DNA from: Lineolata rhizophorae
Lineage: Eukaryota; Ascomycota; Dothideomycetes; Lineolatales; Lineolataceae
Assembly: GCA_010093515.1 (NCBI GenBank)
Contig: MU001689.1
Coordinates: 533,764-597,763, forward strand
Direction of reading: 5' to 3'
DNA length: 64,000 nucleotides
A model generated the notes under the pieces. That model saw nothing but the letters and a program-made list of their open reading frames with translations. It was not told the origin of the DNA and ran no database searches. Shown here piece by piece: positions 40,954 through 56,897 of the stretch; position 1 is the stretch's first letter, and every line of letters begins with the position of its first letter. The position numbers and the translations under genes were made by a program.

Positions 40954-43588
40954 CTAGTCTAATGCTTCCAAAACTGCGAAGGAAATCGCTTTTAGAACGA
41001 TCGGGGAAGATTGCATGCTCGTCATCAAATAAAGAACATTTCCAAGCACTCTCGAGTGTATTGACCAACTTTCTCCAGCTTGTCCATTCAACAAGTGCTT
41101 TTGAAGACCTGCCGCGGCATTCGATGTATAGCCTAAATTTCTATCAGTTTTGAAGTAAAAGATACGAGGGAACCAATTTTTGGACTAACCTTGCCCGTGC
41201 ACGTCTCGCAGCTTAATGACCAATACCGAACCAAGTGCCCAGACGCTGTCGACGCTTGTTTTATAGGACAGCTGGCTGACAAAATCTTGCGACCACATAC
41301 TCCAAATTCGGGAGCTAGCTTTTGCGCAGACGGCTCTAGGGGAGGGAGAAACAACGTCCTTGTCTGAAAGACCAGGGTTCCATTCCAGCCTATACGCCTC
41401 CCAGCCCTCGCTGGCCTCCAATCCTTTCATCTCCTTTAGCGCCGTAATTGCCACGGTGCAGCCAACAGCATGAGCCGTATAACTATGCCCATGAAGCAGC
41501 GCGGATGACTTGTCGTCGTCGAGGAACGCTTCAAAGATGCTCTCGCTCGCCGTCGTCGTGCAAAGAGGAAGCACGCCACCAGTCAAGAGTTTGGCATTGA
41601 CCACGATGTCGGGATCGACTCCGATAAGGGAACTAGCACTCCAGTGGCCAAGCCTGTAGAGTCCCGTGAATACTTCGTCGGAAACCACGGGAAGACCGGC
41701 CCACGCGTTGCTGTCGCTGGGTGCTCCGGAGCTGGGATATGTGTTGAATATCTCGGGCTCTTTACGGATGACGTCCACAAGGGTTCTCTGAAACAGGGGG
41801 TCCCTGGAGCAAGTTAGTGGGAAACTCCAACGTAATATTTGGGGGTTACGGACGCAAACACCATTCCTCCTGCGCCAAGAATGACTGGTTCAAGAATCAA
41901 GGCACCCAATTTCTTGCCGTCTCTCACCAGCTTAGTCAAGACATCCCTAATGTATAGTCTATACTTTTCGCCGATTCTAGACCCGTCGAATATTTCCTGG
42001 AGCGTCCCGAATGTCTGAGGCGGACCGAATTCACTCTCCATCCCTGTTGGTGGCTCGATGGTCCAAGCCCCGTTTCGCATCTGGACCTGTGGAAAGTCAA
42101 ACCAAAATCCACGACCCCGGTACCACTCTACCTTTTCGTTGAAAGTAGATGGCTCAGACATATCCATAGCGCCAATCGTGTCACCATGATAGCTTCCCTT
42201 TAGGCCAATCGCGAGTATGTCATCGGATCGGCTGTCCCATCTGTAGCGAGCAGCAGACGCCCGCAGGGCCATTTTCATGGCCACTTCGGTCCCCGTGCTG
42301 CCGTTGTCGGTGTAGAACACTCGAGAAAGTCGAGGATTTTTGGATTCAGCTAGAAGCATGTCCGCAAGAGCAACAGCTGGCTCGTGGACCGCGCCGGCAA
42401 ACATTACGTGGCCGTACCGGCCTGCAGCATACGCAGCGGCGAGAGAGAACTTGGGATTCCCATGTCCAAGACCCTGGGTCCACCACGATGCCGAGCCGTC
42501 GAACGCAGGCTGCAGAAGCGGGTTTGTGCTGGTTTCCAAAGAGGTTTCTGGCCGAAGGGTTTGGAAGAAATCCCCATATGCAGAATCGATAGTTAAAATG
42601 TCTTTGGTAGAACGCCCTTGATGTTGAGTGAAAGGGTGCCAGATGGCTTTATCTGCGGCGACGACCAGCGATCCAAGCTTCTCTATCCGGGACTTGTGGT
42701 TCTCCACAAGGAGAGTTGCCAGTGGACCAAGCTTTTTATCCCGAACAGCCCGTTCATAGTACGTTTCCACGTTTTTCTGGTCCTCTTCAACAGGAAGTAC
42801 TGGAGCCGGAGGCTGATTCAAGACGAAAAAGTTATCTTTCACTTCTTTGCGAAAGAAGTCCGAAAGATACTCATGGTTACCCAAGATTCCCCCGTTCTCC
42901 TCGTTTTTGAATATGACCACGGCGTCTACGTCATAACCGCGAATCCGAAGACTCTCGTAAGCCGAGAGAGAAGTGCCAATGCCACCTAGTCGATGGTCCG
43001 CGACTAGAATGACGGGCAGCCTCAATGGCCGATAAAGATCTGCCTGCGACTCTGCCGACGGCCCTGGAGAGAGTACACCGCCGGCGGTTTCTACAACCGC
43101 CACGGCATTCTTCTCCTTTGCATACTTCGAAAACTCAGCGGAGACAAGTCCAATCAGAGATTCGGCTGAGGGCACCTATAAATTGCATTAACAACCATTG
43201 GTTGGTCAAAGCGGCTCAAAGGGGTACTGATGGAGTACAAACGTTTCCATCAAGCCGAGCTGCCACGTGAGGAGAGACTGGCAGTGAGAATTGGAACAAG
43301 CATTTTGATTGAGTGCGCTTTCCCGCAAAACGACAGATATGGCTGCAGTTCAATTGGCGTGAGCTCGAGTCAATTGATTGAGTGCGAAATGAAGTCTCAC
43401 CGGTCGTCAGCTTCGGCTTCAGGCCCCGTGGAGACGGGCTTCAAGTAGTGCACGGCATAGGAAGGATGGGTTTCGGACAGGGTGCGGCACAGCAAAGCGG
43501 ACACAATTGTCTTGCCGACGCCGGTGTGAGCGCCAAAAATCTGAGCCGCGACCAAGTTCGGCCACAGCCCAGGAGGCGGCCGCAACAT
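40954..43588 (-). CDS. bioDA: Bifunctional dethiobiotin synthetase / DAPA aminotransferase
   Basis: Five exons, 43588-43401, 43342-43243, 43175-41854, 41803-41190 and 41132-40954, join in phase to give 800 residues. The four introns are 50-67 bp. Residues 1 to about 270 are dethiobiotin synthetase (BioD), with the P-loop GAHTGVGKT at 19-27, LKPVSTGP and VETAGGV. Residues about 275-800 are a class III PLP aminotransferase (BioA), with WHPFTQHQG, NGSTGTEVAMKMA, SYHGDTIGAMD, SDEVFTGLYR and the probable PLP lysine 608 in NAKLLTGG. The enzyme converts 7-keto-8-aminopelargonate to diaminopelargonate and then to dethiobiotin. The fused order BioD-BioA is the eukaryotic form found in fungi and plants. 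The gene is divergent from bioF across 240 bp, so the two are probably co-regulated. The first intron donor is canonical; the third (GTCCGT) is weaker. Start is the ATG at 43586-43588. Confidence 0.92.
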
Positions 43589-43828: not shown

Positions 43829-45249
43829 ATGCATCATGGACCGGGGACGCCGTTCCCCCCTGCCTGCTCGCCGCTGGAGCGCCAGCTCGCCCAGCGCCTC
43901 GACCGGCGGCGCGCCAATTCGACGCTGCGAAGTCTGACCGTCGCGCCCCCGTCCAGCGTCGACTTCTCGTCCAACGATTTCCTCTCGCTGGCCGGCAGCG
44001 CCGAGCTACGCGCCTACTTCCTGTGTGAGCTGGCCGGGGACCGCTCCGGCTGCCCGCCCCTGCTGGGTAGCCGGGGCTCGCGTCTGCTCGACGGCAACTC
44101 GGCCTACGCCGAGGCCGTCGAGCGCGAAGTCGCCGCCTTCCACGGCGCCGCCGCCGGCCTGCTGTGCAACTCGGGCTTCGACGCCAACGCGGGCCTATTC
44201 GCGTGCGTGCCGCAGGCGGGCGACGCCATCCTGTACGACGAGCTGATCCACGCGAGCGTGCATGACGGCATGAAGCTGTCCAGAGCGTCGAGGCGGGTTG
44301 CGTTCGAGCACAACTCTGCCGACGACCTGGGGCGCAGGATCGAGGAGTTGCTGGCGGCAAAGCCGTCGTTTGCCGACGGACACGGGAATGTGTTTGTCGC
44401 TGTGGAGGCCATCTATAGCATGGATGGCGACTTGGCTCCCCTTGCGCAAATCGTCGAACTCGTCGAGAGGCTTCTGCCACGTGCCAATGGCCATGTTGTA
44501 GTAGATGAGGCCCACGCGACGGGCGTTTTGGGTCCTCAGGGCAGGGGTCTGGTGTGTGAACTAGGGCTCGAAAAGAGAGTATTTGCACGACTACATACTT
44601 TTGGCAAATCTCTAGCTTGCAGTGGGGGTGAGTCCACATATGAGATCATTTTCTACGAGTCTTCGAAGTAATCAGTTCATTACAGCCATCATTCTCTCGT
44701 CTCCAATCGTCCGTCATTACTTGGTCAATTATGCCCGTCCTATGATCTACACCACCTTCATGTCGTTCCCCTCCCTGGCGGCCATACGTGCCTCGTATCG
44801 CTATCTGGAGGATGGTAAATCTGAAATAGTAAGTATAACTGATTTACTACGTTGGGATCTCATCATCCTCTGTTCTAATCCGCTACAAGCTATCCTCGCA
44901 GCTGCAAAATCTCATTGCATATCTTCATGAGCGACTATACGAACTTCTCTCTTCTTTAGAGGATAGCACGGGCCTCATTTCCATGCCCATGACCCGGCCA
45001 AGATCTCCAATATTTTCCGTCTTGACAACACGGCCCAGGGAACTGGCCAAACACTGTCAAGAAAGTGGCTTTATAGTCCGGGCCGTAGTACCGCCTACAG
45101 TTCCCGCCGGTAAGGAACGGATTAGAGTCTGTCTCCATGCTGGAAATACCAAGGATGAAATCGACGGGTTCATCTCTAGACTGCAAGAATGGCTTGAAAG
45201 TCGACTGGCAGAATGCAAACCACTCATGGCAAGACAGTCTCGTCTCTGA
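43829..45249 (+). CDS. bioF: 8-amino-7-oxononanoate synthase with peroxisomal signal
   Basis: Three exons, 43829-44627, 44686-44828 and 44902-45249, with introns of 58 and 73 bp (GTGAGT, GTAAGT) give 429 residues. Landmarks are FSSNDFLSLAGS near the start, GSRGSRLLDGNS, AGLLCNSGFDANAG, VVVDEAHATGVLGPQGRG and the PLP-binding Lys260 in HTFGKSLACSG. These define the KAPA synthase branch of alpha-oxoamine synthases, which condenses pimeloyl-CoA with L-alanine, the first committed step of biotin synthesis. The protein ends in Ser-Arg-Leu, a classic type 1 peroxisomal targeting signal. Fungal BioF is known to act in peroxisomes, where the pimeloyl precursor is made. The stop lies 94 bp from the stop of the convergent bioB. 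Confidence 0.93.
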
Positions 45250-45343: not shown

Positions 45344-46653
45344 TCATGACATCGACACCTGTCCCTCTTCCTTTGCTCTTGACGCTCCTATTGCCGCGTT
45401 CACCGAAGGCGCATTCTCGCTCGGCCCATTTCTCAGCATTTCCGTCCTGGAACCCATTGTCTCATGACTAGCCATCGGCCTCAGCCCCCACCGCTCAAAC
45501 ATGGCCTTGTCCTCCTCCCACCCGGTGCACGCCGTTGTGAGCATCTTCTCGCCCGTGAAGACGGCGTTGGCGCCCGCCATGAAGCACAGCATTTGCTTCT
45601 CCTCAGGCAGCACGTTGCGGCCGGCCGCAAGGCGGACGATGGTCGTCGGCAGCACCAGGCGCGCCGTCGCGATGGTGCGCAGCACGGCGTCGAATGGCAC
45701 CGGTGGCGTGTCGCCCAGCGGCGTGCCCTTGATGGGCACGAGCGCATTGACGGGGAACGACTCCGGGTGCCGGTCGAGCGTCGCGACCGTGTGGATCAGG
45801 CCGACGTGGTCCGCGGCCTTCTCGCCGAGGCCGAGGATGCCGCCCGTGCACACGTGGATGCCCGCGTCGGCTACGTTGCCGATGGTCGCTAGCCGCTCGT
45901 CGTAGCTGCGCGTCGTGATGACGTTGGGGTAGTGCTCGCGGCTCGTGTCGACGTTGTGGTTGTACGCCGTGAGGCCGGCGTCGCGCAGCTCACGCGCCTG
46001 CGCACCGTCGATCATGCCGAGCGTCACGCAGCTCTCGAGGCCGAGCGCCCGCACCCCTTCGACCATCTTCTTGATGTTGGCTAGGTTCGTCTTGCGCCCG
46101 CGCATGTCGCGCCAGGCGGCGCCCATGCAGAAGCGCGTGCTGCCGTTGTCCTTGGCCACCTTGGCCGCCTGCAGGACCTCGTCCACGGGCGAGAGCTTGG
46201 TCGCTTTGAGGCCCGTCTGGTACCGCGACGATTGCGCGCAGTAGGAGCAGTCTTCGGAGCAGCCACCCGTCTTGATGTTCATCAGGGTGCACATTTGGAT
46301 GGCGGCGGGGTTGTGGAAACGGCGGTGGAGAGTGCCCTGCGGGGGGTGGATGAGTGTTAGCGGATTTTCATTTTTCAAAATTTCAATGGACAACTAACTG
46401 CAGAGAATGCAAGCTCCATGAGAGGGGTGTTGTATATTTCGGCGATTTCATCCTTGGTCCAATTCGTGCGCGGCTTCGCGGCATTGAGCGCATCGTGGAG
46501 CACCCCTGACGGCGCTGCCGAGGATGATGCAGGTGTTGGAATTACAGGGACGTCCTGGACGGTCGAGAACGGTCGCCGTGTGCTCCGAGGATGCGCAAAA
46601 GCCAATTGACGCCCTCGCAAACGCCTGACGCTATAAGGAAGTCTAGGCGGCAT
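45344..46653 (-). CDS. bioB: Biotin synthase
   Basis: Two exons, 46653-46399 and 46336-45344, with a 62-bp intron (GTTAGT donor) give 415 residues. The first 40 or so residues are rich in Arg, Pro and Ser without acids until residue 34, as in a mitochondrial presequence. The radical-SAM cluster motif is C111-SED-C115-SY-C118. The second, [2Fe-2S], cluster ligands known from the family are also present: TRFCMGAAW, LESCVTLGM, IHVCTGGI and the Arg in VRLAAGR. The enzyme inserts sulfur into dethiobiotin to make biotin. In eukaryotes this occurs in mitochondria with the iron-sulfur machinery. The C-terminal extension after the barrel is Ser/Ala-rich. The gene is convergent with bioF and divergent from rrp17. 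Confidence 0.95.
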
Positions 46654-48357: not shown

Positions 48358-49106
48358 TTAGATGTTGCCAATCTCCGCGACAAAGTCGTCGAGCTCCTTC
48401 TTTGTGTCGGCGTACTTCTTAGCCATCTCCTCGTACTTGGATTCCCACTGGTCACGTTCGTTCTCGAGAGCCTGCACTTTGCGCTCGTAGTGGCCGGCCT
48501 TGACGTCGGTCTGGCGAAGCCTATGGGAAGAAGTAGCGTCAGCGGTGCGTTCCAGTAAAAGGGGTTCCAAACGGCCCACTACTAAGGCTCCTGGTAAAAG
48601 CAAAGTCGATGGCGTGCACTCACTTCTCGTTCGTCTCCCGCAACGTCTTATCCGCCTGCTCCGCCTCGTCCTCCAGGATGGCCAGGCGCCGCTGCAGCGA
48701 CTCGGCCTGGGTGCCGTGCTGGGCGCTCTCGGCAGCGGCGCCCTTGGCGTCCTTGAGCGCTGTCTCTAGCTTCTCCACCTCGGCCTCGAGCACCTGGTTC
48801 TTGTGCGTGAGCGACGTGATCTCCTGCTCCTTAGCCAGGTTCTCCTGCTCGAGCCCCTTAACCTTGGCCGAGAGCTCGTCGGCCTTGGCCGCAGACTCGT
48901 CGGCCTCGATCCGCAGGGCGTTCATGCGCTGTAAGGAGACAGGTCCACATTGTTAGCACGGCTGCATCTCACGGACGGGCTGGGGAATGCGGGGAGCTTT
49001 GCTGGAGAAGGAACGTTGGCTGACGGCGGCGGTAATAGCGGGGCGCCATATGTGAAGGAGGGGCAACTGTCCGGCGCGTAAACAGTACCTTCTTGATGGC
49101 ATCCAT
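48358..49106 (-). CDS. Tropomyosin
   Basis: Three exons, 49106-49089, 48928-48624 and 48520-48358, give 161 residues, the same length as fission-yeast Cdc8 and budding-yeast Tpm2. The first exon is only 18 bp (MDAIKK); splicing gives MDAIKKRMNALRIEADESA, a standard tropomyosin N-terminus. Introns are 160 and 103 bp. Almost the whole protein is a two-stranded coiled coil with clear heptads (LEQENLAKEQEITSLTHKNQ, LEAEVEKLETALKDA), ending FVAEIGNI. Fungal tropomyosin coats formin-made actin cables and the contractile ring and is needed for polarised growth and septation. The short first exon would be missed by simple ORF calling. The gene is divergent from the securin candidate. Confidence 0.93.
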
Positions 49107-49504
49107 GGTGATGTTGGCGTTGCGAAGTAGACTAGGAAAGTTGGAGGAGGGCAGCAGAGTTAGCGGAAGGATTTGCACGAAAGTGAGCGGAAGGGCGCGG
49201 GCAGACGTAGTCGGGAGGGCTGGGTCAATAGGCGTTGCGTATGCAGCGTGTGAGACTGGGCGCTTTTGCGAGACACCGGCCGGCGCCGGTGGCGGTGGAG
49301 GGACCCTGGCTCCGGGGCGAGCGGCCGACCTTTGTTCCGGGCTCCGCGTTGCCCCGGCCAACCGTGGGTGCGTCCGGCCGCCTTGCCCCAAACAACTCGC
49401 GTCCTTCTCCACCACGGCCTCCTGACTCATCGTCTCGACCTTTGCTCCCCGATCCGCCTCAGCTGCATTCCACGAAAAATCTGCCATCCATCATCACCTA
49501 GGCC
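49107..49504. promoter_or_regulatory. Divergent tropomyosin/securin-candidate promoter region
   Basis: A 398-bp GC-rich stretch separates the two start codons. No TATA box or other motif is obvious. Confidence 0.5.
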
Positions 49505-51010
49505 ATGTTTGCAGCCCACGACCAGCAGGAGAACCTCGTCCACGCCCAGCAGGCTGCGGCGGCCGCCAAGCCTCTCAACCAGGGCCTCAAGCAGTTTACG
49601 GCCAAAACACCCGGCAACAAGGCGCCCAAGACGCCGTTCAAGGTCGCGCTCAACGACGAGAATGCCGTCGCCGGCCCAGGCAAGTCGGTTGCCAAGGCCA
49701 ACGGTAAGGCCCGGGATAATCTACTTCGTACCTCGGGCCTGAACAAGAAGGGGGACGCCGAAAAGGATGCCTTTGTCACGCCGGCAGGTGCGTCCTCCAT
49801 CGAGACTCACAGGGAGGAGAGAAATAGGGGAGCTAAACCATTCTGCACATTAACAGGCCCGCGCACCGCTCGCGCACCCCTCGGTGCGAAGACGACCAAC
49901 GCAAAAGCGAAGCCGCTGCAGACGCCTGCGCCCAACAACCTCGAGCCCGGCACCGAAAAGACCAACGTCAAGAGCCGCAGCCCGCGCCTCCGCCGCCCAG
50001 CGAAACTCAAAGTGCTCCAGGCGGACCCTGAAGCTGCGAGCGCCAACCTGCACGATGAAGAGCCCGACGTCGAGTACATGCCGCCTCGCGGGGTGCCGCT
50101 GCCGGACTTTGACGACGACGACGTTCCCGCCGAAGTGAAATATCCGATGCTAGCCGGGAAGAATCTGACGCGCGGCTGGGCCTCGACATACTTGGATCCG
50201 CTCGACGACGACGACGTTCCTCTCTCCAGGAAGCGAGCCGCGGAGAACAAAGTGCGGGCGGACGCATATGCAGATAGGATGATGGCTGAAGCATTTGGTA
50301 GTCTGCCTGGGCCGGGCAACAGGACGAAGCGACCTCAGTCCCCGGGGAAGAAGAACGTACCCAAGAAGCAAAACGAGCCGGCAAAGAAGCCGCCTGCCGG
50401 GCACCAGAGGACTGGCTCCACGCAGTCCCGTGCTTCGAGGGCGGACACGGCCACATCGCGCGCCGCGGCCGCGGCGCTCGCCCAGCCAAACGCCAACCCA
50501 AACACATCCGTCTCACACGCTGCACCACCAAAGCCTCGAGGCACCGCGGGATTCCTCCGTCCCCGCAAACAGGCCGCCCCCGAACCGCCTGCCAATGCGG
50601 CGCGGCGCCACGCGCTGGCGACGGCCGCATCGCGCACCACGCTGGGCTACGCCAAGGGCCGTGACGCGTCGAGCAACCTACGCAAGCCGGTCCGCAACAT
50701 CACGCGCGGGCTCGACGCGCTGCCGGGGACCTCGGAGCCCGTCGCCATCAACCCGCGCGCTCTATTGCGTAGGGAGGACTCCGAGATGACCATCACGCCG
50801 GCCCGGTACGCGGAGAGGTTTCAGCAGGCCGAGGAAGAGGAGGATGAGGTGGTGAGGGATTTACGTGCTATGGACGAGATGATGCGGTGTGGTGCCGAGG
50901 ACGATGGCGTCGAGGAGGAGGTGACTGCAGCACTGCGCGGGAGGACTGAGGAGGACTTGGGAGGGTTGGATGACGAGCTCGAGGACTTTCAGTTTGACGT
51001 TCCCAACTGA
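49505..51010 (+). CDS. Candidate securin (Cut2/Pds1-like)
   Basis: Two exons, 49505-49787 and 49857-51010, around a 69-bp GT-AG intron give 478 residues. The intron length is a multiple of three without a stop, so the frame also stays open if it is retained. The protein is disordered, basic in the N-half and acidic at the C-terminus. The case for securin rests on three signs: an R-x-x-L destruction-box-like site RAPLGAKTTN at 100-109, resembling Cut2 RAPLG; a second at R70 (RDNLL); and DVEYMPPRGVPLPDF at 165-179, which resembles the DIEYMPP segment I recall from fission-yeast Cut2. The length and layout (N-terminal degrons, C-terminal acidic part) fit. Securins hold separase inactive until anaphase and evolve quickly. 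Alternative: an unrelated disordered nuclear protein. Confidence 0.6.
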   Translation: MFAAHDQQENLVHAQQAAAAAKPLNQGLKQFTAKTPGNKAPKTPFKVALNDENAVAGPGKSVAKANGKARDNLLRTSGLNKKGDAEKDAFVTPAGASSIETHREERNRGAKPFCTLTGPRTARAPLGAKTTNAKAKPLQTPAPNNLEPGTEKTNVKSRSPRLRRPAKLKVLQADPEAASANLHDEEPDVEYMPPRGVPLPDFDDDDVPAEVKYPMLAGKNLTRGWASTYLDPLDDDDVPLSRKRAAENKVRADAYADRMMAEAFGSLPGPGNRTKRPQSPGKKNVPKKQNEPAKKPPAGHQRTGSTQSRASRADTATSRAAAAALAQPNANPNTSVSHAAPPKPRGTAGFLRPRKQAAPEPPANAARRHALATAASRTTLGYAKGRDASSNLRKPVRNITRGLDALPGTSEPVAINPRALLRREDSEMTITPARYAERFQQAEEEEDEVVRDLRAMDEMMRCGAEDDGVEEEVTAALRGRTEEDLGGLDDELEDFQFDVPN

Positions 51011-51373: not shown

Positions 51374-52312
51374 TCAACACCAAACCTTCCCTTCCATCAC
51401 TGGCACAGCCCATCCACTGAGCACAACATCCCGTATTCTCCGCTCCTCGTCCAGTGCCACCTCAACTCCAATCTCGCTCCTCCTCCCCATCTCTACTCCC
51501 TGCGTAATTGCATACCTGCTCACCTTCCCGGGCTCACCATCCCTCAGCGTCCGATACACCGCCAGCGCGCTCGCCGCGCTCCCCGTTGCCGGATCCTCGA
51601 GCGGATCGTCGAACATGCGTGCGCACAACCTCTTCGTTCCGTCCTCCATACCCGCCAACCTCACGTAGAAGTACCACCCAACAAAGCCCTTGGTCAGCAG
51701 ATCCGTGTCGGCGGCGTCGAGCGACACCCGCAATAGCTGGCCCGCGGGCTTGACGGCGCGAAGCGCATCCAAGGAGCCCAGCTCCACCAGCGCGAACGTC
51801 ATGCCGCGCACGATGGAGACAACGGGGGCACGATTCGGTATCGCAGCCTGGCCAACCTCGCGCAGCGCCGGGCGCAGGTCGAGGAGTTGCGACCGCTCGA
51901 CAGCCGTTTTGTGGACGATCACATCGTGCGGGATCGAGGCTGAGATACGGCGACGGTCCGGATCCAGGGTGACTGGGATGGGTCCGGCTTTAGTGTTCAG
52001 GGTCGCGCGGCGCACGTGCTGGTCGGCGAGGTGGGCGAAGGCGTACCAGGCGGATCCGATGGTGGGGTGGCCTGCGAAGGGGATCTCGGCGTCCGTGATG
52101 AAGATGTCGATCGTCCATTCGTCTGGGTTCTGTCCGGTGCCTAGGCGGAGGAACACCGTTTCAGAGAGGTTGAATTCTTTCGCGATTGCTTGCTTTTGAC
52201 CTTGGGACAGAAAAATGTTCGGAGGCAGGCGGACGATGGCAAGTGGGTTGCCTTCGAACCGGATGTCAGTGAAGACATCGCAAGTGGTGAATTCGAGCTG
52301 TTGTGAAGCCAT
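51374..52312 (-). CDS. PhzF-family isomerase-like protein
   Basis: A single exon of 312 residues. Family signatures are TCDVFTDIRFEGNPLAIV at the N-terminus, FNLSETVFL with the catalytic glutamate, DAEIPFAGHPTIGSAW at the first half-barrel and DPLEDPATGSAASALAVY at the second. PhzF-like proteins are two-lobed isomerases. PhzF itself acts in bacterial phenazine synthesis, but fungal members are widespread and their substrates are mostly unknown, so no phenazine pathway should be inferred. The start is the ATG at 52310-52312, since the frame extends six codons upstream only from a TTG. No biosynthetic partners are nearby. Confidence 0.9.
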   Translation of the reverse strand: MASQQLEFTTCDVFTDIRFEGNPLAIVRLPPNIFLSQGQKQAIAKEFNLSETVFLRLGTGQNPDEWTIDIFITDAEIPFAGHPTIGSAWYAFAHLADQHVRRATLNTKAGPIPVTLDPDRRRISASIPHDVIVHKTAVERSQLLDLRPALREVGQAAIPNRAPVVSIVRGMTFALVELGSLDALRAVKPAGQLLRVSLDAADTDLLTKGFVGWYFYVRLAGMEDGTKRLCARMFDDPLEDPATGSAASALAVYRTLRDGEPGKVSRYAITQGVEMGRRSEIGVEVALDEERRIRDVVLSGWAVPVMEGKVWC

Positions 52313-52890
52313 GATTCGCAATTGAGCCAAGAGTGTAATTGCAATTCAATTTCTCCCAAGTCTGTCCACGAATAGAAGTTCGAGATCTGAGCTCACATTC
52401 ATTAGCCTGTACGCATCTCCAACTCTAAATTCTGTTACTAAGTGAGTCATGTGTGATCACAAAAACCTGATTACTAATATCCAAGGCTGTGCCAGATTGC
52501 ATTGCATACTCTTGCCATGAAATATGCTAAAACTTATTCGAATGTTGTGGTGATAGTCGGCCAGACGATCAAAGTTATCCGGGATGTTAAGAGGACTATA
52601 CTCGGGCGATTTCAACTCAGTCTTAGTTAGTCCCATTGTCTACTATTCACTTCAAATAGACATTTGCAGTAATGAGCTATGCACAGTGCGTTCTGGTGCA
52701 CATGTATGGCGTTCTCAGTAATTGAATCTGCTACTGGTACGTCTAAGCTTGCAATATTACAACATGCCTCAAGATTCAAATCAACCGGTCTAGCCATCAG
52801 AAACGAAATAACATGCAAAGACGATCCATCATGGGCGAGTAAAACGCTTCAAATCCGGTATCCAAAACGCTACATTCACTGCAGTAATAT
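52313..52890. other. Intergenic, no feature seen
   Basis: AT-rich stretch between the PhzF-like start and the inositol-phosphatase stop. I see no gene or repeat. Confidence 0.55.
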
Positions 52891-55800
52891 CTAACCAGGC
52901 TTCAACGCCTCCCAGCCACGCAACTGATTCAAACCACTATCATCCTCGTCGTCCAACAAGCCCGGCCCCGACGCCTGACTGCTAGCCTGCGAAAGCCCCG
53001 TCCCCGTCCTTCGTGGCGGCAGTCTCGGAGGTGCCTCGTCCACTTCAGGCTCGTTCGTTCGTCTCTCATTCTTAGAGCTCGAGCCCCGCGGTGGTGGTGG
53101 AGCGGGAGCGGTCCGAGCGGAAGGACTCATCTTCTCAGTCGCCGCTCGGCGAGGCGGCGGTGGGAACCCTCCCCCTAGCGCGTCGGTGGCACTTGCAGCA
53201 TGGGAGGGAGATGTGCTGCTTAGTTGAGACGGCTTCTTCGGGATTGGAGGGGCCGGCTTGCGAGATGGTACCGAGCTCACGGAGGATGCAGGGGAGTTCC
53301 GGCCGGACGGGTGCTGGTGCAATGGAGCTGGGTGGATGGGAAGAGAGCGGGTTGATGTCGAAGATGGAGACCGTGCGCGAGAACGAGTGGGCCCATTAAC
53401 ACCGCCATCTAAAAGGCTGGGGTTGTATGGTGGTGGCAGCTTTCGTTGTGGTAGGGTTGCGGAAGACGACATCCCGGACGAGCTCTCCAGCCTGTCATGC
53501 TGAGGTAGACTGGGTCTGCTTTGAGACTTATCGATCCATGTTGGATGAGGACTCTGCGTGAAAGGGTTTGAAGGACGAGCTGGGTTGAGAATGGAAGTCG
53601 GGTTTGGAGGTTGGAGCGTGGAACGAGCTGGAAGGCCTAGAAGTATGTTAGTACCGACTTCGCACTCCGCAATATCGTGTTTGGCTCCATACCGTTATCT
53701 AACCACCACTTGCGTTTGTCAGAACTCGCGGGCGGGAGCCCAGGCTCTACAGCCTCGTATCCGATGAGGTCCTCGTCTTCCGTGTCGACATCATCCGCAT
53801 TTGCCGTATTGTTGCCTACGGCACTCTTCCGGGCCAAGTAGAGCGCATTGCTAAGCTCGTCCCTCTTCTTTTCGTCGACTACGTTGATCATACAAAGGAA
53901 GAGCGCATAAACAGGGCGATGATCTGAGAAGCGAAGGGGAGCGGTATAGTATGTTGTCTGACGAAGATTGTCTCCCTTCCATAAAATGCGATCGCACCAC
54001 GCCGGGATACGCGCCTTGTCACTCGTATCGTACTTGTCCGTACCGTTGTCATACTTGTATGTCGGATCGAAAGTTATTCGACCCTCGGCGTAGTATGGGA
54101 ATGTGAGGCCATTCACCATCTGAATATTAAGCTGCGATACGGTTAGACTTTGCGCCAAGACATGCGACGGATATGGATTACCTGATCGTTGTCGTAAAGC
54201 CTCTCTAAATTTCCCATCTGAATGCATTTCCGCACCTCCTCGTTGTCCAGTCCGATCCGGTAATTAAAGTCTCCCAGCCAGACGACGGTATCGTGGTCAT
54301 CGATGGCCCTATTCCGCTGGAATCGCAAACCGTTACTGATCGTTTTGTAGTCACGATTACGTTCTTCGTAGTTTGCGAAACCAGCAGCCAAATGCGCAGT
54401 CACAAAGCATATTGAAGTACTCGCATAATCCATTCGTATCGCCACGGCACCTTTGTTGCCCGCAATGCCGGACATGCCGGTCTTCTTAACGCTTCCCTCC
54501 ACATTCTTGATCGACCGCAGAACGCTAGCTTTGACGAAGATCGAAAGCGACGCGCCGACGAGCTGGCCGCCGCGGAGGAGGACGTATTCCTCACTTCCAG
54601 TCTTTTGGGCATGCTCGTTGAGGGTTTTCTTCACCGCAAGCTCCCAAGCTTGCCGCCTTGCCGGATCAGTGCTCATGATCTGCTGGGGCGAAAGCTCCAC
54701 GATTTCCTGAAACCCAACAGCGACAATCTCTGGATTTTGCTGCGCTTCATCAATGTTAGGCGGGCAAAGCCAGGAGGATAGGTCTTCGTTGACGCCGTGG
54801 CCTTTGCCGTTCAGATTGAACGTCCCCGACCAAATCCGGATGATGTCCTTGGAGGAATATTCGCCAGATCTTCGCGCAAGTTCGGCGGTTACGTAGTCAT
54901 TAATAGGGTCGTAAAGGTGAACAGGACTTTGCCCTATCAGACGCCCCAGAAGCATGTCAATAGTGTTCTGCCTTCCCTTGTCCGCAAAGTTATTGATATA
55001 CATCCTAGTAGCGCTCTTTCTAGCATCCGCCAGGGCGCCTGCGAGTGACATCTTCCCATGTCTAGTAAATGATGATTTCAAGGCACCAGTGCCGGCATAA
55101 ATACGAGAAAGAGCCTATTGTAACGAAATATTGTCAGAAGAAATTCCGGAGGTTGGCATCGAAACTTTTCTACTCACGTCGCCATTGTCTGCCCAGAGAC
55201 TGCTGTGTCTCACCCAAAAATCCGAGTTGGCCCGGTCACTACGATGCTCCAAGAAGGCCTCGAAGGCCATTCGCGAGATGTTAGTCTGCACAAGATTCGT
55301 TCTATCTAGACAATCAAGGCAATTTGTTCTAAACACCCCTTCTTGTTGCAGGACAACGACTGATCGACGAATCGGTTGACTCGGATCAATCGCATTCCCT
55401 TGGACGTTGGAAGGCCGTTCCTCAATGTCCTCGCTCAAAAGATACGCAAAGCTATCCGCGGAGTCTTGAATCCAGCGGCTGACTTGGGCCGCAGCTTCGT
55501 AGCCCGAGGGCCCTCTGGTCTCGGCGTTGAAGTCATAGTTGGTTTCCTTCAATAGCTCGTGGCCCGAGCCGGATAGCGCGCCCTTCTCGTCCCGGTTCAG
55601 CGAGCTACGCGTGATATGATGATGGTACCTTTGCGTCAGCTCCACCTCGCCTGGGCGCTCGTTGCTTAGGAGATTCACGATGTGTACGGCACCATAGTGC
55701 GTTCCGAGGTCCTCAAAGTGCAGATCAAAGGCGGGCTGTGTCGCCTCGGCGGATCGCGTGACGCTTATCTTTTGCTGCCCCGGTATCAAGCCTGACTGCT

Positions 55801-56897
55801 GCTCCCAGAAAACAGGAACGGAGCCGCGGACCTGGACGTACGAAAACGTCAGGGAGCCGGACGGAGACCAGTAAACTGTCTCGGATTCTACGAAATTAGC
55901 CACGTTGCCGTCGTCGTCGATGCCACGTGCGTTGAACCGGGTGCCCGCACGTCTGCAACTGAGGCGCGAGATGAGCGTCAGATGCGACGGCAGGCCAGAA
56001 CGTGGCCCCGCCGCGCGAGCCGGCGACGATGACGGAGGAACCTTGATAGTGAGTGCGAAACCGCGAATCGCGGAGGTTAAAAAGCCAGAGCGGTCCAACG
56101 ACGTCTTTTCCCGCTGAGAGAGCCTAGACCGGAAGTTCACCAAGGGTTGGATCATGTAGCTGTTCCAGAGAAAGCCAGCCTTGAGGCTGTCGATGGCTAC
56201 CGTGGGAGCATCGCCGGACCTGTCTTGCAGCCTCCTGGTAAGGTCGAAGTCGGCGCTGTAGTAGAACGTCCCGCTACTAAGCAGCTTCTTCAACGCGAGG
56301 CAAGGATGCTCGAGCGAACCGTCCTTGCGGCCCTCATTGTACCCATAGTCGAACCCTTCTTCGTCCACGTAGTCGGTCGGGTACGGGTTGATTTGGTCGT
56401 TCAAGACGTGGTCATATTGGGTGCTGCTTAGACAGTCTGAGTTTGCCAATGCGGATTAGCCACGTGTGCCAACAGGGCCGCGCTGTGAGCAAATGGAGGC
56501 GCGGCTTGGGCAGAAACATACAAAAATCGACTCCCAATATCCGCTGCACCGTCTCGCCCGGCCTCGCTTCGGCCACCCGCGCCGCCTGGCTCACCACGCA
56601 CAGGAAGACCTCCTTGTTAAGCGTGATCAGGCCCAAAGTCCCGCTGACGCCCACGCCCGCCGGAGTTAGGTTCCTATAGTTGGAGAGGTCGACGTCGCCT
56701 GCCTCGGCGAACTCGACCATGCAGCGAGGCGACGACCCCGATCCATTGCTCGAGAGCGATACTTGGCTGCCGGAGTAGAGCCCGCCGCCTGGAGCGTCTG
56801 TCGAGGACGGGCTGTGCCGGAATATGAGGGCGTGGGTCCTGGTCTCGAGGGCGATGGCCCGATGCGGGTGGTCCTTGACGCGCACACGTATCGACAT
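52891..56897 (-). CDS. Synaptojanin-type phosphoinositide phosphatase (Inp52/Inp53-like)
   Basis: Five exons, 56897-56522, 56436-55178, 55114-54182, 54131-53693 and 53636-52891, join in phase to give 1250 residues. Introns are 50-86 bp. The N-terminal half is a Sac1 domain with the Cx5R(T/S) site CLDCLDRTN near residue 497. The central IPPase domain (about 635-930) has WLGDFNYR near 825, PAWCDRILWK near 900 and SDHRPVY near 926, all metal or substrate residues of inositol 5-phosphatases. The last 270 residues are Pro/Ser-rich with PxxP runs such as RKPAPPIPKKP, likely SH3-binding sites. The protein should remove both 5- and mono-phosphates from PI(4,5)P2 at the plasma membrane and endocytic sites. 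Both active sites look intact, which fits yeast Inp52/Inp53 rather than Inp51, whose Sac1 site is dead. Confidence 0.93.

Follow-up and report, generated by a model that had tools for sequence, protein, structure and literature searches.

A candidate securin of Lineolata rhizophorae recognised by the anatomy of its motifs

The locus and its gene

We analysed a window of 64,000 nucleotides from a contig of the fungus Lineolata rhizophorae (MU001689.1), in which a gene on the forward strand at 49505-51010 is a single open frame running from ATG to TGA, 501 codons long without its stop, with an in-frame TAG immediately upstream of its first ATG. By codon position, the GC content of the frame is 0.766 at the third, 0.678 at the first and 0.511 at the second, and the GC-rich third positions are as expected for a coding frame at the given base composition. 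A 69-bp stretch inside the gene (GTGCGT...ACAG, with a branch-like GCTAAA) is likely an intron, judging from its splice signals; its GC content is 0.507 against 0.652 in the coding sequence. Because this putative intron preserves the frame, the protein would be 478 amino acids long if spliced and 501 if unspliced (Table 1).

The surroundings of the gene are recognisable from Pfam domains. Between 41185 and 46393 in the window, biotin-synthesis genes adjoin one another: a radical-SAM plus BATS gene (45347-46393), a class I/II aminotransferase (43829-44668) and an AAA_26 plus class III aminotransferase gene (41817-43175), which we take to be BioB-like, BioF-like and BioDA-like, respectively. The other strand carries a tropomyosin exon (48623-48952, minus strand; Pfam E 1.4e-19) upstream of the candidate gene, and a PhzC/PhzF-like gene (51377-52345, minus strand) lies immediately downstream in convergent orientation. 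Adjoining frames at 54146-56455 on the minus strand encode SacI-homology and Exo_endo_phos2 domains, presumably as in a synaptojanin-like phosphatase.

Table 1. Features of the candidate gene, in window coordinates. Residue numbers of motifs (RDNLL from aa 70, RAPLGAKTTN from aa 100, DVEYMPP from aa 165) refer to the spliced form of 478 aa.
Feature	Position	Strand	Comment
Coding exon 1	49505-49787	+	N-terminus, DEN-like site, RDNLL; TAG at 49499 and ATG at 49505 bound the open frame
Probable intron, 69 bp, frame-preserving	49788-49856	+	Splice signals, lower GC, GCTAAA
Coding exon 2, including stop	49857-51010	+	Open frame
DENA, aa 51-54	49655-49666	+	Aligned with KENA of the provisional Cut2 sequence; no true KEN box
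RDNLL, aa 70-74	49712-49726	+	RxxL without statistical weight
RAPLGAKTTN, aa 100-109	49871-49900	+	RxxLG; best destruction-box candidate
DVEYMPP, aa 165-171	50066-50086	+	Putative pseudosubstrate with Asp at P6, Glu at P4 and Pro at P1
PLPDFDDDDVPAE, aa 175-187	50096-50134	+	Candidate docking stretch, compare LPE/VPE motif
LDPLDDDDVP, aa 207-216	50192-50221	+	Second acidic block, like the first
Acidic C-terminal tail, aa 401-478	50774-51007	+	28 acidic residues against 7 basic ones; some helix in a low-confidence model

The encoded protein has a long basic middle part and an acidic tail, and database comparison places it in no family: hmmscan against Pfam returned 0 families, a PDB search gave nothing useful beyond a single spurious vimentin match (E 0.69), and the genome holds no paralogue of the exon-2 part, the two matches to it being weak (E 1.49 and 1.65). 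Peptide-pattern matches in 8 viral_contigs and 67 genome_contigs stretches, both collections viral and prokaryotic, included no relative. Composition and modelling suggest that the protein is mostly intrinsically disordered. TOP-IDP places all residues on the disordered side, charge-hydropathy does so narrowly for the protein (0.402 against a boundary of 0.419), and a single-sequence AlphaFold model of the unspliced 501-aa form, which as a prediction made without an alignment is weak evidence, agrees with both (mean pLDDT 49.2, pTM 0.20, 306 of 501 residues below 50). At low confidence, the same model suggests helices in the N-terminus and the acidic tail as well as around residues 240-264 and 363-379. 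The first-pass annotation had described a disordered protein of suitable length for a securin; its disorder holds up, and its length fits roughly, at 478 aa against 301 aa for the provisional Cut2 sequence used below and a still shorter human protein.

Comparison with known securins

Securin holds the chromosome-separating protease separase inactive until anaphase. The Cut2 sequence of fission yeast used here is provisional and not confirmed letter by letter; it is 301 aa long, with two RxxLG boxes, a KEN box and DIE at residue 127. Published work places an in-frame Met five residues ahead of the canonical start of Cut2 (PMC13175033), and an excerpt of PMC4626109 describes a separase-binding DIE motif within Cut2 residues 81-156 that yeast and worm securins have as well; the provisional sequence has Met at -5 and its DIE inside 81-156, which speaks for it. 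In a single BLASTP comparison, the candidate aligned with the provisional Cut2 sequence at E 3e-4, collinear over the destruction box and DIEYMPP/DVEYMPP, the latter being the resemblance proposed in the first-pass annotation. The local score of 90 was attained by none of 2000 shuffles, and that of the N-terminal parts alone by none of 1000. Masking the pseudosubstrate left a score that 4 of 1000 shuffles attained; once the destruction boxes were masked as well, no residual similarity to the provisional Cut2 sequence was left (308 of 1000), and the C-terminal parts likewise showed none (230 of 1000). Only the motifs, destruction box and pseudosubstrate, are thus common to the two proteins.

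These motifs follow the same order in the candidate and in the provisional Cut2 sequence: DENA for KENA, RAPLGAKTTN for RTVLGGKSTN, a basic stretch, DVEYMPP for DIEYMPP and then acidic residues. The provisional Cut2 sequence differs in having a KEN box and two RxxLG boxes within 301 aa, whereas the candidate has one RxxLG, 478 aa and a dissimilar C-terminal part. Among 335 open reading frames of at least 150 aa, a set made up of the window and fetched loci that is enriched for pattern matches and is no proteome, the unspliced candidate frame ranked first against the provisional Cut2 sequence (score 83), followed by a receptor-like tail (77). When the whole genome was searched with the provisional Cut2 sequence, the sole match listed, at E 1.33, was this receptor-like tail and not the candidate. 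The tail belongs to a membrane protein at C43:8032-8193, which we take to resemble a pheromone receptor, and aligns with the N-terminus of the provisional Cut2 sequence, in our view by chance. Its local score of 77, against 83-90 for the candidate, was attained by none of 1000 shuffles, and since the tail is unrelated, shuffle statistics overstate the similarity to Cut2. Whole-sequence similarity was accordingly dropped as the main argument for a securin, the receptor-like tail being near-equal and nothing being left once the motifs are masked.

Budding-yeast Pds1 offers a comparison with confirmed letters, the 116-residue segment used being identical to PDB 5u1s_B over query residues 4-119. 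We found that DVEYMPPRGVPLP of the candidate aligns without gaps with DIEIAPQRQEPLP, the 13-residue start of the confirmed Pds1 part, at a score of 37. This was the top score among 2403 open reading frames of at least 50 aa (258,834 aa; again the window plus fetched loci, enriched for pattern matches and no proteome), in which the runner-up reached 31, and when the candidate was shuffled 20,000 times, 10 of the shuffles attained it. A gapped alignment with the first 25 residues of the segment gave a score attained by 23 of 2000 shuffles; the whole 116-residue separase-binding segment has no significant similarity to the candidate (133 of 2000). Both proteins (Pds1 in PDB 5u1s_B and 5u1t) read D[IV]ExxPxRxxPLP without a gap, and Pds1 has Pro at P1 in the candidate's register. 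Beyond this block, VPE follows in Pds1 and VPAE in the candidate, six residues past DVEYMPPRGVPLP and closing an acidic stretch. A test for the docking motif read VP.E in PLPDFDDDDVPAE, with no exact VPE or LPE, and this stretch is a candidate docking motif comparable to the VPE/LPE of securins. A likeness between the C-terminal ends, GLDPEELED in Pds1 and GLDDELED in the candidate, is put down to chance, since 398 of 2000 shuffles do as well.

The literature supplies the structural logic of these motifs. Securin lies along separase as an extended pseudosubstrate in which the Arg at P1 is replaced by a large hydrophobic residue (excerpt of PMC10317155); the candidate, with Pro at P1, goes against the residue class stated in that excerpt. 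After the pseudosubstrate, an LPE motif (VPE in budding yeast) blocks the exosite that Scc1 uses, and in human securin the two elements are 113-EIEKFFP and LPE at 130-132 (excerpt of PMC6858450). Human securin thus resembles the candidate in its sequence of pseudosubstrate and LPE and in a P1 that is not Arg, and is unlike it in having Phe rather than Pro at P1 and in being much shorter, its constructs ending at residue 202 (excerpts of PMC6858450 and PMC8280194). It also has a KEN box; the 478 aa of the candidate contain neither a KEN box nor an NxLxΦE motif, which counts against a securin, although we do not regard a KEN box as a defining feature of the family. Vertebrate securins are described as lacking homology to Cut2 or Pds1 at the sequence level (excerpt of PMC10003635).

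In the filamentous fungus Chaetomium thermophilum, a securin with a recognised pseudosubstrate is described (excerpt of PMC6858450). Homology with it allowed the human pseudosubstrate to be recognised, an observation for which the same excerpt cites Lin, Luo and Yu 2016. Besides C. thermophilum, the literature matches listed contained nothing on securins of filamentous fungi, and the excerpt of PMC6506691 names only budding-yeast Pds1 as a securin. Literature searches by motif letters returned unrelated work only for EYMPP and no match for the destruction-box letters.

Motif rarity, separase and kleisins in the genome

The individual motifs differ greatly in weight. Of 20,000 shuffled versions of the candidate, 96% have an RxxL somewhere, so RDNLL carries no evidential weight. 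RxxLG within the first 160 aa occurs in 5.9% of 20,000 shuffles, [DE][ILV]E[FY]xP in 0.17%, and the ordered pair, RxxLG followed by [DE][ILV]E[FY]xP, in 1 of 20,000; all these frequencies are optimistic because the patterns were picked after the protein had been seen. The first-pass annotation had pointed to two destruction-box-like sites. Both are present, RAPLGAKTTN as a modest signal when taken alone and the best candidate for a destruction box N-terminal of the pseudosubstrate, RDNLL as a worthless one.

In the whole 31-Mb genome (48 contigs, the window lying on C20), a DNA pattern for [DE]ΦEYMPP had one match, the candidate, and its reversed control had none. A looser pattern, [DE][IVM]E[FY]xP, had 40 matches, as did its reversed control; its P3 is confined to Phe or Tyr and its P5 to Ile, Val or Met, and a securin with other residues would escape it. 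All 40 loci, the window among them, were read, and same-frame features sort them: a stronger RxxL form lies upstream in 5, [LV]P.E downstream in 2 and PL downstream in 1, and only the candidate combines all three, with frames taken from stop to stop, such that a destruction box in a separate exon would escape. Within these bounds (Phe/Tyr at P3, Ile/Val/Met at P5, single frames), no better securin candidate emerged elsewhere in the genome.

Family models offered less. The Pfam Securin model had no match in the genome, and none in its 14 controls; we take this model to be built on vertebrate securins, so its silence is not decisive. The premise that similarity searches usually miss the securins of filamentous fungi stands as far as the Pfam and provisional-Cut2 searches go, both having failed, and is weakened by the C. 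thermophilum securin already in print (excerpt of PMC6858450), which also means that the candidate is not the first securin from a filamentous fungus.

The partners of a securin are present in the same genome. Separase matches at C2:575575-576789 with 496 bits, in an open frame of 2328 aa with the protease domain covered, and its nearest solved structure is the Chaetomium thermophilum separase (E 1.9e-157). The separase protease family has one further, weak match at C18:283193-283765, in a frame of 1158 aa, scoring 41.8 bits and above the cut-off. The kleisin N-terminal family has two matches, one on contig C11, taken as Rad21, and a weaker one on C9, called Rec8-like solely as the second match to this family; for the C-terminal family of kleisins, the C11 gene was the one match.

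Both kleisins contain peptides of the separase type, for which an excerpt of PMC12609080 gives the cleavage rule [D/E/S]ΦExxR, from P6 to P1. In the 599-aa Rad21 frame, 3 of 5 ExxR sites have Asp, Glu or Ser at P6, and 2 of those have a hydrophobic P5 (PSVEFGR/R and LSLEVVR/R, the slash following P1); in the two frames of the Rec8-like gene, the corresponding numbers are 2 of 4 and 1 (DEVELPR/E). SVEFGR in Rad21 and EVELPR in the Rec8-like protein are therefore putative separase cleavage sites that match the published rule. Set against PSVEFGR/R, the candidate's PDVEYMP/P has the same P5 and P4, an aromatic P3 in both, Asp for Ser at P6 and Pro for Arg at P1. By alignment score, the kleisin site peptides match the candidate within chance (328 of 2000 and 165 of 2000 shuffles), so the argument from the fungus's own substrates rests on position. 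DVEYMPP looks like a separase pseudosubstrate, matching Pds1, following the P6-P3 pattern of the kleisin sites and lacking an Arg at P1.

A securin reading and its alternatives

In aggregate, we consider it highly likely that the protein is the securin of L. rhizophorae, a judgement founded on the anatomy of its motifs rather than on overall similarity. The first-pass annotation had proposed the same identity, and the proposal now gains three further reasons: the Pds1 13-mer, the pattern of the fungus's own kleisin sites, and the PL and VP.E elements. The protein is very probably a fast-changing member of the well-known securin family and no new kind of protein.

The genome contains separase, two kleisins and, in one protein, these motifs in this order with a rare pseudosubstrate. 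Before anaphase, the disordered candidate would be stretched along separase, with DVEYMPP filling the active site as an uncleavable copy of a substrate, Asp standing at P6 (Ser in Rad21), Glu at P4 and Pro rather than Arg at P1. The PLPDFDDDDVPAE stretch would block the exosite otherwise available to Rad21. At anaphase, APC/C-Cdc20 would recognise the N-terminal RAPLGAKTTN, and the candidate would be ubiquitinated and destroyed. Freed separase could then cut Rad21 at SVEFGR and, in meiosis, the Rec8-like kleisin at EVELPR. Binding, inhibition of separase, degradation and the kleisin cleavage sites are all inferred from sequence in this scheme.

Another APC/C substrate would be the foremost alternative, and an unlikely one: a disordered protein of the spindle or chromosomes that has a destruction box, does not inhibit separase and contains EYMPP by coincidence. 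The missing KEN box, the long basic middle, the acidic tail and the dissimilarity to Cut2 past the pseudosubstrate speak for it. It would leave to coincidence that [DE]ΦEYMPP has no second match in the genome, lies inside the 13-residue Pds1 match and is followed by an acidic VP.E stretch, and that the P1 Arg is replaced as in known securins. We regard as very improbable a separase substrate or docking protein that binds through DVEYMPP without inhibiting and is cut elsewhere, for example at EDEVVR (aa 423-428), the one strict [DES]xExxR match, located in the tail; DVEYMPP has no Arg at P1, EDEVVR has Asp at P5 where the published rule asks for a hydrophobic residue, and ExxR occurs in about 20% of yeast proteins (excerpt of PMC12609080). 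Equally improbable is a protein that is simply disordered, has some unrelated function and carries every motif by chance: the ubiquity of RxxL (96% of shuffles), the similar score of the receptor-like tail against Cut2 and the looser pattern being as common as its reversed control (40 and 40) speak for it, against the 1 in 20,000 shuffles with the ordered pair and the 10 in 20,000 attaining the Pds1 score, both for patterns picked post hoc.

Under the preferred identification as securin, the C-terminal part, with its second acidic block (DPLDDDDVP) and perhaps helical tail, might be a lineage-specific extension that gives an extra grip on separase or performs a second job such as loading separase onto the spindle; securins of filamentous fungi would then be bipartite inhibitors, a speculative idea to which we attach little probability.

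The candidate would fill the place of securin beside separase and the kleisins in this genome. That both the Pfam and the provisional-Cut2 search missed it fits the picture of securins diverging too fast for sequence searches, and the case suggests a simple rule for finding further ones: look for a protein that combines a destruction box, a docking stretch and the cleavage pattern of the organism's own Rad21 and Rec8-like proteins with the Arg at P1 missing. Our understanding of anaphase control is unchanged by the candidate; its worth lies in the annotation and in the search rule.
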